In this document: positions 3,246 to 7,187 of the stretch, one piece after another
Position numbering within the stretch: the stretch's first letter is position 1
How the letters are laid out: each line of letters begins with the position of its first letter
Source: a virus
Virus record (IMG/VR): IMGVR_UViG_3300031758_000346
Span: 1 to 31,572 of that record
Direction: 5' to 3' (one strand)
Length of the DNA: 31,572 bases
Translations under genes and position numbers: made by a program
The notes under the pieces: model-generated
Seen by the model: the letters and a program-made list of their open reading frames with translations, nothing else
Databases searched by the model: none
Told to the model about the DNA's origin: nothing

Positions 3246-3392
3246 TTACTCCGGTTGAGTGGGCCACTGGATTTCCAAAGGGAAACCCGCTTGAGAAGGT
3301 ACATCACGCAGGGCTTGGCGGTAAATTGCCCATGCAGCTTGATCGACAGGTGCGTCATACCAAATCCGACTTTTGAAAGCCAAACCGCTCAA
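3246..3392 (-). CDS. Tail-fibre assembly chaperone C-terminal module (in +1 frame to the upstream gene)
   Basis: This frame encodes WYDAPVDQAAWAIYRQ then ALRDVPSQAGFPLEIQWP, ending TQPE. W-x-x-YRQALRD-hP-x-Q-x-x-FP-x-x-hxWP is the hallmark of phage tail-fibre assembly chaperones (Phage_TAC/DUF4376 group). The frame has no ATG: it opens after a TAA with TTG at 3392 and lies +1 relative to the 82-residue gene, overlapping it by 38 nt. Either it initiates at TTG, or it is the C-terminal half of one protein joined by a +1 frameshift, or it is a decayed remnant. The competing ATG at 3358 gives an unrelated short peptide that I reject. Confidence 0.55.
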   Translation of the reverse strand: MSGLAFKSRIWYDAPVDQAAWAIYRQALRDVPSQAGFPLEIQWPTQPE

Positions 3393-3603
3393 TTATGCTG
3401 AGGTCTTCAACATCCTGCCAAACAGGCTCTATTGCTTCACCTTTGTATCCAGGCTGACCGTAGCCATCTGGATACACGGCAACGTTTTGTTTACGGGTCA
3501 TGCTGCCGCGAAGAAAGTCCATAAATTGCGCATGTTCAGGCGTACCCTGAATAGCGTCTAAGTCTTCGCGTGTGTTAATGATGGTTCTGGATAGCAATGC
3601 CAT
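3355..3603 (-). CDS. Tail-associated protein, likely N-terminal part of fibre assembly chaperone
   Basis: 82 residues from an ATG at 3603 with GGAG 7 nt upstream; it overlaps the end of the RT gene by 29 nt. The product begins MALLSRTIINTREDLDAIQG, contains a Gly/Tyr/Pro stretch (VYPDGYGQPGYKG), and ends VEDLSIIERFGFQKSDLV. I recall proteins of this kind next to fibre genes in phages of Gram-negative hosts but cannot name a tested function. The chaperone-type motif follows immediately in the +1 frame, so the two may make one product. Confidence 0.65.
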   Translation of the reverse strand: MALLSRTIINTREDLDAIQGTPEHAQFMDFLRGSMTRKQNVAVYPDGYGQPGYKGEAIEPVWQDVEDLSIIERFGFQKSDLV

Positions 3604-4570
3604 GTTTATTCTCCAACCAATTAAAAAGATGATGGGTGTCTGCCCAACATGCGTGGCCAGACCAAGAAGCAAGAAACTGTTTTAGGGACGTTTGGTCGTC
3701 GTGGCGAACAAATTTGGCGACTTTTCTCTTAGCTCTTACGACTGAGTCGCGGCGCAAAAGTTTATGCGTTTTCCAGATTCGAAAGCCAAGGAAGTTAATA
3801 CCTTTCGCTGTTGACGACACTTGCCATTTGCTAATGCTTAAGCGCAGCGCTGTATTGGAAAACTTTTTGATACCGGCAAAGGTCTCACGCAGCGATGCAA
3901 CACTATGTCCAAGCACAATAATATCGTCCATGTAGCGCGCCCAGTGTCGTATACCTAAATCGAAGTGTATGTAACGATCCACTGCGTTGCCATACACGTT
4001 GGCAAAAAGCTGACTGGTAAGACTTCCGATAGGAATGCCGCGACCCTCCACTGGAATAATTTCTCTCAGTATCAAAAGCGTTTTAGCGCAGGCAATTTTA
4101 CGGTCAATCATCTGATGCAACACCGCATGGTCAACTGAAGGGAAAAACTTCGCAAAGTCTGTTTTTAAGAAATAAGGCGCGTTTGTTTTACGTAGCGCGG
4201 ATTGAACGTGACGGACGCCCGCGTGGGTTCCTAGACCTACTCGACAAGCAAACGTTTGAGGTAGTAGCGCTCGTTCAAAGATTGGGCCAACGATATTGCA
4301 CAAAGCGTGTTGAACGAGACGGTCCTTGAAATCCAAGGCGGAAATCAAACGTGCTTTAGGCTCATAGACTGTGAACTCTCGGTAGGGGCCAATTCTATAA
4401 CCACCATCCAGCAATTCTTGTTGCACAAGCAGCAGATTAGCCTCGGCGTACTCTTTGAATTCAAGATAACCGAACGTCATGCGTTTGTTGCGCGAAGTCT
4501 TCTCCAAAGCTATGCGAAGATTTTCGATGTTTGCTATTTGACCAATAAGGTTCTTGTGCGTTCTAGCCAT
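3575..4570 (-). CDS. brt: Diversity-generating retroelement reverse transcriptase
   Basis: 331 residues from the ATG at 4570 (MARTHKNLIGQI). It reverse-transcribes the TR RNA with adenine-specific errors and so supplies the mutagenic cDNA that replaces VR. Visible motifs: KTDFAKFFPS with catalytic D138; IGSLTSQ (181-187), the DGR-type motif 4; and the active-site YMDD (213-216). A thumb-like, basic C-terminal region follows (GINFLGFRIW, RAKRKVAKFVRH). There is no maturase or endonuclease domain, as expected for DGR enzymes. From memory it aligns end to end with the Bordetella phage BPP-1 RT (about 328 aa), which fixes this start. The frame stays open upstream through TR and avd, but that extension is not protein-like. 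Confidence 0.97.
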   Translation of the reverse strand: MARTHKNLIGQIANIENLRIALEKTSRNKRMTFGYLEFKEYAEANLLLVQQELLDGGYRIGPYREFTVYEPKARLISALDFKDRLVQHALCNIVGPIFERALLPQTFACRVGLGTHAGVRHVQSALRKTNAPYFLKTDFAKFFPSVDHAVLHQMIDRKIACAKTLLILREIIPVEGRGIPIGSLTSQLFANVYGNAVDRYIHFDLGIRHWARYMDDIIVLGHSVASLRETFAGIKKFSNTALRLSISKWQVSSTAKGINFLGFRIWKTHKLLRRDSVVRAKRKVAKFVRHDDQTSLKQFLASWSGHACWADTHHLFNWLENKHGIAIQNHH

Positions 4571-4838
4571 AAGAATGCTGGCCGCGCCGTTCAATTGCTT
4601 ACTAGGCGCTATGCCAGACCGCTGAGTGTATTTCCCGAAGGAGGACAAAACCGGCTGACCACATGTTAAATGACCGGCTTGCAAAGCCTTAGCGATTGCA
4701 AAGCGATAAACGAATGTCGTCACAGACGCCGCGCGCCCCGATGTTGTTGTTCGAGTTCGTGGGAGAGTTGTTCCAGTTCGAGCTTCGTGATCCGGAGTTC
4801 GACCCGTTGTTCCAGTTGCCCTCAAAGATCGCGGCGTT
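4571..4838 (-). ncRNA. DGR template RNA (TR plus spacer to RT)
   Basis: The 120 nt TR is followed by about 148 nt of non-coding spacer before the RT start codon. In BPP-1 the RNA covering TR and the downstream spacer is the functional template, and the spacer is needed for cDNA priming. The same layout is seen here. RNA ends are inferred, as I see no promoter or terminator that defines them. Confidence 0.6.
4719..4838 (-). repeat. DGR template repeat (TR)
   Basis: 120 nt matching VR (5262-5381) at a constant offset of 543 without gaps. The coding strand has 33 adenines, mostly in AAC codons; 16 of them differ in VR and none of the 87 other bases do. TR starts at the last two bases of the avd stop codon. 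Its end carries the 14 nt all-G/C block (4727-4740) followed by GTCTGTGAC, the counterpart of IMH* in BPP-1. Homology stops at 4719. Confidence 0.97.
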
Positions 4839-5214
4839 AATGCCCGGTCTGCCCCTGCTTTTGCCTTTTCTTGATCCAACTGCCCAACATTGCACCAACT
4901 TCCGCGACGAGTATTTGTGCTGTCTGAAGTTGATGTGGTGTAAGACATTTGATCGAGACAAGGAATCGCATCCAAAACCGCAGTTGCGCCAACCCTGCGT
5001 CTGCGGCGTAAATTTTTGAGATCTGATTGCTTTTTCCGGCCTGAAAAAACAGATCGGGTTGACTTAGCAAGCAGTGGAGAAACATGTCGCGAGCGACGCC
5101 GTGCTTGCGCGGTATAGACTGCGCAATCGGATACAAATAGCTGATCACGCGTTCGTACTTCTCGCTGATAGCCATTTGGTCGTAGCATTGCGTTGTCTCT
5201 CCTATAGGGTTCAT
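4837..5214 (-). CDS. avd: DGR accessory variability determinant (Avd)
   Basis: 125 residues. Avd forms a basic pentameric four-helix-bundle barrel that binds the RT and template RNA and is needed for mutagenic homing. The motifs ISYLYPIAQSIPRKHG, AGKSNQISKIYAADAGLA, RFWMRFL and VGAMLGSWIKK match what I remember of the BPP-1 Avd (128 aa). The N-terminal MNPIGETTQCYDQM aligns with the start of that protein, so I choose the ATG at 5214 over the in-frame ATG at 5175 or TTG at 5217. No strong Shine-Dalgarno precedes it. It sits between the VR hairpin and TR, as in BPP-1, and its stop codon touches TR. Confidence 0.95.
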   Translation of the reverse strand: MNPIGETTQCYDQMAISEKYERVISYLYPIAQSIPRKHGVARDMFLHCLLSQPDLFFQAGKSNQISKIYAADAGLAQLRFWMRFLVSIKCLTPHQLQTAQILVAEVGAMLGSWIKKRQKQGQTGH

Positions 5215-5225
5215 CAAGTCTTGAT

Positions 5226-5243
5226 GGCGCCCTTTCGGGCGCC
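5226..5243 (-). promoter_or_regulatory. DGR target-site hairpin/cruciform with GAAA loop
   Basis: Perfect 7 bp inverted repeat (GGCGCCC/GGGCGCC) with a 4 nt loop reading GAAA on the coding strand, beginning directly after the stop codon of the mtd-like gene and 18 bp from the end of VR. In BPP-1 a hairpin/cruciform with a short GC stem and a GRNA tetraloop just downstream of VR raises homing efficiency. The position and loop class match. There is no U-tract, so a terminator role is unlikely. Confidence 0.85.
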
Positions 5244-6374
5244 TTAATCAAGAATCAGGTGGTCACAGACGCCGCGCGCCCCGAAGCTGCCGCTCGAGTA
5301 CGTGGGAGAGTTGTTCCAGGCCGAGCTTCGCGATCCGGAGTCCGACCCGTGGTACCAGGCGCCCCCAAAGAACGCGGCGTTTTCCATTTGATACGTTGAG
5401 CCTCGGCCTCCGGTATTAGCAGTCCATGCCGCGCCCGCTGCGCCGCCGCCAAAATTAGCACCCCACACCCAAAGGTTTCCAGTAGCTAACATGACACCCC
5501 ACTTGGATGTGTAGGCGTTGCGCAAAATGGTTGATCCTGGATCTGTGCCGCCAGAGCTGGCTTCGGTCGTGCCATAAGCAAGTGCTGCGAACTCATCGTA
5601 AGCAGGGGACCTCTTACCCCAAGATCGTAATACTTCGTTAGCTTCCCACCAGTTCATCGAACCGTAAGCGCTTGAGCCGTTGCCACCGAACTTTGTCGGG
5701 ATTTTGGGCGGTGACGATCCGTCTGCAATGGTCACGTTATAGGCTGATGTGCCGTTGGTAAGGTGGTCAACGCCGAGCAAATAGATATCTGCCCAAAACG
5801 AGTCAGCAATCAGTGTCATACCGCGAGGGTCTGAACACGCAGGTCTAAACTTAAGATCCCAGAACGAGTATTCATTGATGGCCGGTGTAGTGTCACCGCC
5901 CGATGTGCCACTTGCATTGCCTCCTGGCGCATAGTGGAATCCACCGATGCGACGCCAGTTTCCCGCGCCCGGTGCAGATGAATAATTGCTGGTCGCTTGA
6001 ATGGTTGCGTCGTCTTTGACCCAGATAGCGTAGTTTGTACCGGCGGTAAGCGCAGGCATCGTAATCGAGGTGGCGCTGGCAAACGTTACAGTTGTGCCTC
6101 CAACCTCCACACGCGTCCCTGCTTTAATTTGGGCCGTGCCTGCACCTGTTTTGGTAAACGCAACAGTGCTTGGATCTGCTTTGTAAAACAGGCCGTAGGA
6201 GGGTGATGCGACGGTACCGAACGATAGATTTCCAGAGCCATCGGTAATTATGGCTTGACCTACACTGCCATCAACACCTGGGAGTGTAAATGTCGTGCTT
6301 GACGCAGTGTTTGCGCTTTGGATAGTGGTCGTACCGGCGCCACTCGCATTGCCTTGAATCTTAAGATTACTCAT
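5244..6374 (-). CDS. mtd: DGR target protein, Mtd-like receptor-binding tail protein
   Basis: 376 residues from an ATG at 6374 with AAGGA 6 nt upstream. Mtd is the trimeric tail-fibre tip protein of BPP-1 that binds the host receptor through a C-type-lectin fold whose surface is diversified. From about residue 60 onward the sequence follows what I remember of BPP-1 Mtd (381 aa): ITMPALTAGTNYAIWV, GGFHYAPGGNA, FWADIYLLGVDHL, TSKWGV, TANTGGRGS, and the end GARGVCDHLILD. VR covers residues 332-371. The first ~55 residues differ from BPP-1 and look like a fibre-linker module (STTFTLPGVDGSVGQAIITD). Receptor binding is inferred from the family; the receptor is unknown. Confidence 0.96.
   Translation of the reverse strand: MSNLKIQGNASGAGTTTIQSANTASSTTFTLPGVDGSVGQAIITDGSGNLSFGTVASPSYGLFYKADPSTVAFTKTGAGTAQIKAGTRVEVGGTTVTFASATSITMPALTAGTNYAIWVKDDATIQATSNYSSAPGAGNWRRIGGFHYAPGGNASGTSGGDTTPAINEYSFWDLKFRPACSDPRGMTLIADSFWADIYLLGVDHLTNGTSAYNVTIADGSSPPKIPTKFGGNGSSAYGSMNWWEANEVLRSWGKRSPAYDEFAALAYGTTEASSGGTDPGSTILRNAYTSKWGVMLATGNLWVWGANFGGGAAGAAWTANTGGRGSTYQMENAAFFGGAWYHGSDSGSRSSAWNNSPTYSSGSFGARGVCDHLILD
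5262..5381 (-). repeat. DGR variable repeat (VR) with IMH at its end
   Basis: 120 nt at the 3' end of the mtd-like gene. Relative to TR, 13 codons are altered and 12 amino acids differ. Examples are TR AAC codons turned into GCC, TAC, CAC, GAC, AGC and GGC, and ATC into TTC. All 16 substitutions fall on TR adenines. The end is an invariant 14 nt G/C-only block (5270-5283) followed by GTCTGTGAC, matching the IMH element that marks where cDNA integration starts. Confidence 0.97.
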
Positions 6375-6383
6375 AAAATTTCC

Positions 6384-7187
6384 TTAACCAAAAATTAACC
6401 AACGCTGATCGCTGCCAATTGTCACAGACACGCCCGTATTAACTGTGACAGGTCCAACACTTGAACCGTTATAACTGGAAGTGATTGTATAGTTTGAAGA
6501 TATAGTTTGTTGATTCTCTGCTATAACACCACCACCAGAAGCCCATGACAAGGTGCCAGAACCATCTGTAGACAAGAACTGGCCGCTTGTGCCGTCGGCG
6601 CTTGGCAGGGTCCAAGTCACATTGGATGAGATGGTTGATGGTGCCTGGAATGCCACCCAGTTACTGGAATCAGAATCGCCAAACCTTAGATCGCCTTGAG
6701 CGTTGATCGTGAGGTTTGAGCCATCCGTAACAAGGTTCGTAGCGCCAGCAAATGATCCGGCGTTGTTGTACTGGACTTGCGTGGTGGCGCCCCCGGGAGC
6801 CGAAGTGACGCTAATATTTCCCGACCCCAAGATACTGATGCTATTGATAGTCTTGAAATCAGTGCCAGAGACGGCAGCAGCTACTGCGGTACCGTTTCCG
6901 ACAAGCACCCCAGTGACTGAGGTTGAGATCGTGATCGCTGGGGTCGAGGTCGCAGTAGCCTGGGCGACGGTTCCGGCAAATCCGTTGGCCGACGCTACAG
7001 ACACCGAAAGCTTGTCGGTGAGCAGCCTAACCGTCCCGGCGTTGTCCTTGTAATACAGCTTCCCATCAGTGTAGTTTAGTGCGAGTTCAGCGCCATTAGC
7101 GGAAGAGGTAAGGTTCGCCGCTGCTGGAACTGCAGATGCGGTACTGCTACCGTAAAGAAGTATTGGGGTGTAACCTGTTTGTGACAT
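6384..7187 (-). CDS. Tail fibre protein
   Basis: 267 residues; its ATG at 7187 overlaps the upstream stop (TAATG). The N-terminus (TPILLYGSSTASAVP, NGAELALNYTDGKLYYKD) is a familiar phage-fibre opening. The middle has typical fibre repeats (VSVASANGFAGTV, GVLVGNGTAVAA), followed by TWTLPSADGTSGQFLSTDG, a motif also found near the N-terminus of the Mtd-like protein. The C-terminus ends in short beta repeats (SSNYTITSSYNGSSVGPVTV). It lies 9 nt before the mtd-like gene. I infer a shaft or collar element to which the variable tip attaches. Confidence 0.8.
   Translation of the reverse strand: MSQTGYTPILLYGSSTASAVPAAANLTSSANGAELALNYTDGKLYYKDNAGTVRLLTDKLSVSVASANGFAGTVAQATATSTPAITISTSVTGVLVGNGTAVAAAVSGTDFKTINSISILGSGNISVTSAPGGATTQVQYNNAGSFAGATNLVTDGSNLTINAQGDLRFGDSDSSNWVAFQAPSTISSNVTWTLPSADGTSGQFLSTDGSGTLSWASGGGVIAENQQTISSNYTITSSYNGSSVGPVTVNTGVSVTIGSDQRWLIFG

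Follow-up and report, generated by a model that had tools for sequence, protein, structure and literature searches.

A BPP-1-type diversity-generating retroelement with an Mtd-like target in an uncultured tailed phage

Organization of the locus

The window considered here is the whole of a 31,572-nucleotide stretch of viral DNA (IMG/VR record IMGVR_UViG_3300031758_000346). Its minus strand carries a diversity-generating retroelement (DGR) arranged in the order of Bordetella phage BPP-1, with the Mtd-type target gene followed by VR, a hairpin with a GAAA loop, avd, TR, and RT. The features of the locus are the following:

5244-6374, minus strand: target gene for an Mtd-type receptor-binding protein of 376 aa, from homology searches
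5262-5381, minus strand: VR, the 3' end of the target gene, from TR/VR comparison
5270-5283, minus strand: (GC)14 element of the IMH, from sequence comparison with the BPP-1 VR
5226-5243, minus strand: hairpin after VR, with a GC stem of 7 bp and a GAAA loop, abutting the target stop codon
4837-5214, minus strand: avd (125 aa), ATG at 5214, from phmmer, Pfam, and NCBIfam
4719-4838, minus strand: TR, from ungapped TR/VR comparison
4577-4704, minus strand: TR-RT spacer RNA, from a match to Rfam RF03022
3575-4570, minus strand: RT (331 aa), from identity to BPP-1 Brt and motifs
3355-3603, minus strand: bbp4-like gene (82 aa), from identity to BPP-1 Bbp4

The RT gene is assigned to 3575-4570 because its first ATG is found at 4570. 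A first-pass annotation of the window had described a complete BPP-1-type DGR spanning 3575-6374. The gene order that it gave is borne out and all the expected parts are found, namely RT, Avd, Mtd, adenine-only TR/VR variation, (GC)14/IMH, a GRNA hairpin, and a Phage_DGR spacer. Hence, the identification as a DGR stands, but the extent has to be revised, since a fourth cassette gene common with BPP-1, at 3355-3603, had been missed.

This bbp4-like gene overlaps the end of RT by 29 nt and its product is 62% identical to BPP-1 Bbp4. Of 108 RT loci, the window and BPP-1 among them, 92 have such a gene beside the end of RT. This makes bbp4 a fourth conserved gene and a likely partner of Mtd. The 82-aa protein of the window has no Pfam match. 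Among eight longer or related versions, two contain DUF4376 (E 5e-18 and 8e-23), one has a sub-threshold match to Phage_tail_APC, one gives a chance-like match only, and four are without Pfam match. A fold search with a Bbp4 model (mean pLDDT 84, pTM 0.57) returned no match with E <1 in BFVD or PDB, so the idea that the product is possibly a tail-fibre helper of Mtd draws on gene order and on the domains of longer homologs. No paper on Bbp4 in Bordetella was found within the open-licence PMC literature, where such an absence carries little weight.

Proteins and spacer RNA of the cassette

Homology searches gave clear matches for all three main proteins. RT is 64.2% identical to BPP-1 Brt over 330 aa and matches 8ub7_A in phmmer (E 1e-140); the IGSLTSQ and YMDD motifs already pointed out are present, at residues 182 and 214 of the translated frame. 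Avd is indeed full length, with 125 aa from the ATG at 5214, and it matches BPP-1 Bbp7/Avd (4dwl, phmmer E 2e-56), Pfam bAvd (E 2e-30), and NCBIfam DivGenRetAVD, for which it exceeds the cut-off. The target matches Mtd structures (phmmer E 1e-112 to 2e-115), Pfam mtd_2nd (E 5e-20), and a PHROG tail protein (E 4e-119). Clear likeness to Mtd is limited to about residues 63-376, where identity to the BPP-1 protein is 60.6%; the N-terminal ~60 aa, over which the phmmer alignment is poor, correspond to a different tail-fibre module. By homology to the solved Mtd structures, the target is predicted to have a C-type lectin fold.

The spacer RNA scores 104.5 bits against Rfam RF03022 Phage_DGR (gathering 50), which it matches over its full length (1-127/127), and no difference was seen. 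It carries a conserved GGTCAGCC block with an adenine at the position of the BPP-1 priming adenine, number 56 in that phage. This adenine is kept in 82/82 aligned spacers, across which the fold is conserved and covarying.

TR/VR variation, IMH, and hairpin

Aligned without gaps, TR and VR show 9 A>G, 4 A>T, and 3 A>C changes. These 16 substitutions fall at 16 of the 33 TR adenines and at none of the 87 other bases, as the first-pass annotation had reported; if changes were placed at random over the 120 sites, the probability that all 16 would hit adenines is 3.8e-11. The VR positions that face TR adenines include 5285, 5287, 5290, 5291, and 5372. Thirteen of the 40 VR codons are changed, 12 of them non-synonymously. 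TR and VR share the (GC)14, with CGGGGCGCGCGGCG present in both, and divergence begins after TCTGTGAC, giving the differing 3' segment that distinguishes IMH from IMH*. The (GC)14 element and the next 21 bp (5249-5269 in the window) read identically in the BPP-1 VR.

The hairpin at 5226-5243, GGCGCCC-GAAA-GGGCGCC, conforms to the rule of a 7-10 bp GC stem with a GRNA loop given for DGR post-VR hairpins in PMC3240598. The same scan applied to 90 BPP-1-like cassettes, detected in IMG/VR and GTDB genomes for comparison, found a GRNA loop in 69 and no hairpin in 13. The stem has 7 bp in the window vs. 8 bp in BPP-1, with a GAAA loop in both.

One may ask whether TR and VR could be an ordinary diverged duplication next to a group II-intron-like or defence RT, the adenine bias having arisen by chance. 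RT does score against group II intron and Drt/retron models, but all these scores are far under the cut-offs. Chance is opposed by the adenine-only pattern itself (p ~4e-11), and Avd, Mtd, and a DGR spacer RNA adjoin RT; the joint presence of Avd, TR/VR, IMH, and spacer RNA already refutes such a duplication, whose probability we regard as negligible.

Evidence for recent activity

The same phage is represented by a second record, which is interrupted precisely within VR, with ends at 5283 and 5356. Each end lies 2 bases from a TR-adenine site (5285 and 5354), and 5283 is also the edge of the (GC)14 element. Outside VR, this record matches the window save for 21 substitutions, none of them in TR, which is identical. 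The break could be an assembly end caused by the repeat; yet the equally repeated TR was assembled through.

Relatives carrying the same type of cassette allow direct comparison of VRs. L029 and L073 are identical over the 1161 bp from TR to RT, and their VRs disagree at 13 of 29 TR-adenine sites and at 0 of 91 others; for L143 and L147 the counts are 15/25 and 0/92. When the 90 cassettes are pooled, 1243 of 2369 TR adenines are changed vs. 104 of 8159 other bases. Only 36 of the 90 show adenine changes alone, and adenine bias is slight in L153 (6/11). Among 26 near-identical cassette pairs, 23 have VRs with 0-3 differences away from adenines; the remaining three pairs (L020/L023, L020/L024, and L036/L042, 92.7-94.4% identical) have 4, 6, and 11 such differences. 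VRs are identical in six of the 26 pairs, so that diversification is not visible every time.

To the first-pass annotation the element looked recently active. In relatives with near-identical TR and RT, the VR differences fall mainly at TR-adenine sites. Together with the VR-located break in the second record, the VR-VR comparisons support recent activity well, though indirectly; they likewise lend indirect backing to mutagenic retrohoming in the window phage, where we infer that diversification is ongoing. The cassette might instead be intact in sequence while diversification has ended, as a fossil of recent activity whose VR was fixed by selection. The loss of the machinery at related Mtd loci and the identical VRs of some near-identical relatives would fit this idea, but no defect is seen in RT, Avd, IMH, hairpin, or spacer RNA, and the second assembly breaks in VR with TR unbroken. 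Such a fossil appears improbable to us.

Mtd loci without DGR

In 18 Mtd loci, which fall into 13 distinct groups, bbp4 comes immediately downstream of mtd and there is no DGR; L083, the nearest Mtd relative of the window, is one of them. Scars of avd, RT, or hairpin remain in several of these loci, which indicates repeated DGR loss and suggests that phages repeatedly lose the DGR, freezing the tail tip. On balance, we consider it probable that the DGR is a removable insert between mtd and bbp4, repeatedly lost through deletions that begin at the mtd stop/hairpin/avd/TR and reach the RT 3' end, with freezing of a formerly hypervariable tip; Mtd plus Bbp4 would be the unit that moves among unrelated backbones, whether or not the DGR goes with it, and the window and L083 would represent a pair with and without the element. 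Mtd proteins without a DGR are in themselves already known. Synechococcus phages S-CBS1 and S-CBS3 and Marinomonas phage P12026 have annotated Mtd-like genes, and in S-CBS3 and P12026 the 3 kb on either side of the gene contain no annotated RT. In titles and the beginnings of abstracts of the open-licence PMC literature, nothing on point was found on DGR loss or deletion, an absence of little weight.

Several candidate observations were set aside. L136 and L141 do not represent one species: their alignment begins at the target start, and they are thus different phages with a common mtd-bbp4 block, which slightly lowers the probability that we give to the removable-insert reading. Apparent target insertions of ~600 bp in tblastn (L141, L143, L144, L147, L120, and L092) were rejected on account of normal target ORF lengths. 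In all of these but L120, TR, which encodes the same peptide, lies 520-550 bp downstream of VR, so that the insertions are merged matches; the cause in L120 is untraced. Repeats D2-D8 and both inverted repeats are weak, chance-like matches.

Proposed mechanism and significance

Bordetella phage BPP-1 uses its DGR to rewrite its tail tip and reach new hosts. The window very probably holds a complete DGR of this type, in an uncultured tailed phage, that rewrites an Mtd-like tip and thereby the surface bound. Anatomy and the adenine-only record are read from the sequence itself, and the biochemical steps are proposed by analogy with BPP-1, whose cassette has reportedly been assayed with a reporter in a laboratory E. 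coli strain (PMC12875486). The RT-Avd complex would read the avd-TR-spacer transcript, priming from the spacer RNA, and the error-prone RT would insert random bases across from the adenines of TR. VR would then be replaced by the cDNA at the (GC)14/IMH site, aided by the downstream hairpin. The C-type-lectin tip of the target protein could thus have as many as 12 AAC codons and a few more rewritten, which may change the surface that the phage can bind.

Loci with and without a DGR offer natural pairs of related receptor-binding proteins, hypervariable or frozen, and with such pairs one could test what hypermutation of the tail tip costs a phage and what it brings.

Comparison with known systems

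The BPP-1 DGR (NC_005357; mtd-VR-avd-TR-brt) has the same gene order as the window, with identities of 64% for RT, 69% for Avd, 61% for Mtd residues 63-376, and 62% for Bbp4, and an alignable spacer. In contrast, the Mtd N-terminal module and the TR sequence differ, and the backbones are unrelated: 30 of 34 tested window ORFs are without match at E 1e-4, whereas the four cassette genes match. The structural genes are collinear with those of Caudoviricetes sp. ctpbd312 (MW202545.1, Manatee Spring), an unrelated phage matched in the same order by 14 of the 34 ORFs (MCP 91%, portal 60%, and tail adaptor 62% identity). RT, Avd, and target of the window find no match in ctpbd312, which has a neuraminidase-like tailspike gene, annotated as endo-N-acetylneuraminidase, where the window holds a gene at 6384-7187 and the DGR cassette.

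The cassettes from IMG/VR and GTDB have the same order and similar spacing, with adenine-biased TR/VR differences in most; RT identity to the window is, for example, 71% in L014 and L003 and 70% in L156, which comes from an Akkermansiaceae MAG. Their target N-termini are very diverse, with first-ATG target lengths of 270 to 1155 aa, and most have no further gene in common with the window inside the fetched flanks. BPP-1-type DGRs are common and well described, and since 90 such cassettes were detected, the window element adds a further natural case to a known system; it is set in a backbone unrelated to that of BPP-1, and its parts are close enough to those of BPP-1 for direct comparison.

Organization of the DGR cassette and its TR/VR record

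The sequence of the cassette region was inspected, and TR and VR were compared by script. The first-pass annotation had described a complete BPP-1-type diversity-generating retroelement (DGR) that looked intact and recently active, and the order that it gave, target gene with VR, hairpin, avd, TR and RT, is the one read directly from the minus-strand coordinates. The elements, with the fourth gene shared with BPP-1, are as follows.

6374-5244, minus strand: Mtd-type target gene
5381-5262, minus strand: VR
5243-5226, minus strand: hairpin (7-bp GC stem, GAAA loop)
5214-4837, minus strand: avd
4838-4719, minus strand: TR
between TR and RT, minus strand: spacer
4570-3575, minus strand: RT
3603-3355, minus strand: Bbp4 homolog (82 aa), sharing 29 nt with the end of RT

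The ungapped alignment of TR with VR spans 120 nt, and the two differ at 16 positions (nine A>G, four A>T, three A>C), all of which are TR adenines (n = 33), with no change at the 87 other bases, exactly as first counted; the probability of an adenine-only pattern, if the 16 changes were randomly placed, is 3.8e-11. At the codon level, 13 of 40 are changed in VR, 12 of the 13 non-synonymously.

VR variation in related cassettes and the VR break in a second record

The same bias is found in related loci fetched from databases. In 90 pooled cassettes, a set that includes near-copies, the window, BPP-1 and some distant DGRs, 1243 of 2369 TR adenines are changed vs. 104 of 8159 other bases, and 36 cassettes have adenine changes alone. 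When cassettes at least 90% identical are paired, VRs differ in 20 of 26 pairs. For example, the differences fall at 13 of 29 TR-adenine sites and 0 of 91 others in L029/L073, at 15 of 25 and 0 of 92 in L143/L147, and at 19 of 28 and 3 of 93 in L023/L024. VR differences falling at non-adenine sites in close relatives had been named beforehand as a refuting finding; 23 of the 26 close pairs have 0-3 of them, and the remaining three have 4, 6, and 11, which answers that condition family-wide. The survey of Roux et al. counts 31,007 metagenomic DGRs and ranks viral ones as the most active (PMC8144416); an intact, active phage DGR is therefore expected.

A second IMG/VR record of the same phage, G001 (58,834 bases), shares 26,217 identical bases with the window to one side of VR; to the other, 5,283 bases show 21 substitutions, none in TR. 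The ends of G001 fall at window position 5283, where the (GC)14 element has its edge, and at 5356; both lie two bases away from a TR-adenine site (5285 and 5354, respectively). The 72 bases that it lacks contain 12 of the 16 VR sites that are changed. TR, bearing the same repeat as VR, was assembled intact. Such a break is the expected assembler outcome for mixed VR variants, but an indirect sign of recent activity. When IMG/VR was scanned for the exact pattern, with any base allowed at TR adenines, no further VR of this species emerged; the sole record returned was G001, with its TR only. Separately, 20 of the 21 substitutions crowd into 88 bases (2257-2344) of one ORF (2119-2619), 19 of these 20 at third codon positions (hand count), suggesting a local recombination tract.

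Mtd loci without a DGR

Among related loci, 29 target copies are not followed by RT and avd, and bbp4 is close in 18 of them (L083, L090, L091, L099, L101, L105, L106, L109-L112, L118, L121, L125, L139, L142, L150, L155), where it follows mtd within 0-91 nt with neither avd nor RT between. No RT match was obtained in the 21 contigs searched (these 18 plus L127, L128, and L129). Many of these contigs are 5-16 kb fragments, and because only five of the 18 exceed 27 kb (up to 55.1 kb), RT may lie elsewhere in the genome for the shorter ones.

Several junctions retain pieces of a cassette. At L139, the hairpin and avd start are joined to the RT end; RT 3'-end bases are kept at L109-L112, L125 (by eye) and L142, and the hairpin at L150 and L155. 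All these loci carry scars of a lost DGR. Since the junctions of L083, L090, L091, L099/L101, L105/L106, L118, and L121 are clean, these loci may reflect gain instead of loss. At L136 and L145, only an RT C-terminal remnant is left. L145 is a decayed DGR, with the Avd N-terminus (residues 2-51) abutting RT residues 228-324 (6293-6745). Compared with L141, L136 (7380-7460) lacks 1099 bp reaching from TR into RT. The two cannot be aligned upstream of the target start and are therefore different phages; apart from the deletion, their mtd-bbp4 blocks are nearly alike. From the target start to TR, the substitutions comprise 19 within the first ~70 bases, 17 in VR, of which 16 fall on TR-adenine sites, and one elsewhere. 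L136 is thus either a chimeric contig or a phage that recently lost its DGR after exchanging the block. Besides these cases, L134 (4963-6930) has two tandem Mtd-type targets before one avd-TR-RT, and L109, L110, and L112 each have three, without RT.

On a target tree built without VR by a quick method (97 rows, near-copies included), 14 changes between the states with and without DGR are needed, at least nine of them forced by starred branches, vs. 18.2 on average with shuffled labels. The row nearest to the window is L083, which has no DGR (support 94, not starred). VRs are identical (0/125) in eight near-identical pairs without DGR, whereas among 18 close pairs classed as with DGR, two of which involve the DGR-deleted L136, they differ at 12-22 sites in 11, at 3 in two and at 0 in five. 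This contrast is only suggestive, because the DGR-less pairs are near-identical outside VR too (0-1/825).

The 18 loci having mtd then bbp4 show that bbp4 travels with mtd rather than with RT. Where RT is present, with enough downstream sequence (108 loci; four further are too short), a bbp4 homolog adjoins its end in 92, including the window, G001, and BPP-1 (match offset -112 to +125 nt), and two of the 16 negative loci, L050 and L140, have a similar N-terminus by eye. For the window homolog, no Pfam family was found, the NCBIfam scan gave nothing above cut-off, and the PHROG match is weak (E 0.01); a fold search with the short form gave no match. In a scan of eight longer or related versions, DUF4376 was detected in two, and a tail-assembly chaperone domain, below threshold, in one. 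The product is possibly a tail-fibre helper of Mtd. Two points are worth passing on: this idea, and that the DGR between mtd and bbp4 appears to have been lost repeatedly.

Relationships with BPP-1 and other phages

The window RT matches that of the solved BPP-1 complex (8ub7_A, E 1e-140), Avd matches Bbp7/Avd (4dwl, E 2e-56), and for the target, six solved Mtd sequences match, with E from 1e-112 to 2e-115; identities to BPP-1 are 64% for RT, 69% for Avd, and 61% for the Mtd part (residues 63-376). The VR end, CGGGGCGCGCGGCG followed by TCTGTGACCACCTGATTCTTG, is the same in both phages. The TR-RT spacer belongs to Rfam RF03022 (Phage_DGR; 104.5 bits, gathering 50). Spacers were aligned from 82 of the 90 cassettes, selected at an RT identity of 50% or more (near-copies, window, and BPP-1 included), and the adenine of GGTCAGCC is kept in 82/82; the corresponding priming adenine of BPP-1 is number 56. 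The consensus fold has 25 pairs, with 1432 of 1471 cells paired (59 non-redundant rows), and reaches -27.2 kcal/mol, whereas 100 column shuffles averaged -0.3 and went no lower than -3.0. Priming of cDNA synthesis by an internal spacer adenine is described in PMC12875486, and the window hairpin conforms to the rule for phage DGRs published in PMC3240598. Every testable feature of membership is present, and the window element probably works like the BPP-1 DGR.

A deposited T7 genome (L166, LR745707.1) is also matched, because its gp17 tail fibre is annotated as fused to BPP-1 Mtd.

Outside the cassette, the relationships are different. When 34 minus-strand ORFs of the window were compared with BPP-1 (E 1e-4), only the target, Avd, RT, and the Bbp4-bearing ORF matched. 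Collinear matches to phage MW202545 (Manatee Spring) were obtained for 14 of these ORFs, which all lie within 3-23669, with identities of 91% for the MCP, 60% for the portal, and 62% for the tail adaptor. In MW202545, a gene annotated as endo-N-acetylneuraminidase stands where the window has its DGR. The first ~78 residues of this neuraminidase-like protein (31773-32006) resemble the N-terminal ~71 aa of window gene 7187-6384 (minus strand; 60%), beyond which the window tail gene differs from the MW202545 tailspike, a tailspike swap point beside the DGR. Hence, with a backbone unrelated to BPP-1 and a neuraminidase-like gene at the corresponding place in MW202545, the window carries a BPP-1-type receptor module in an unrelated backbone, beside a tailspike position.
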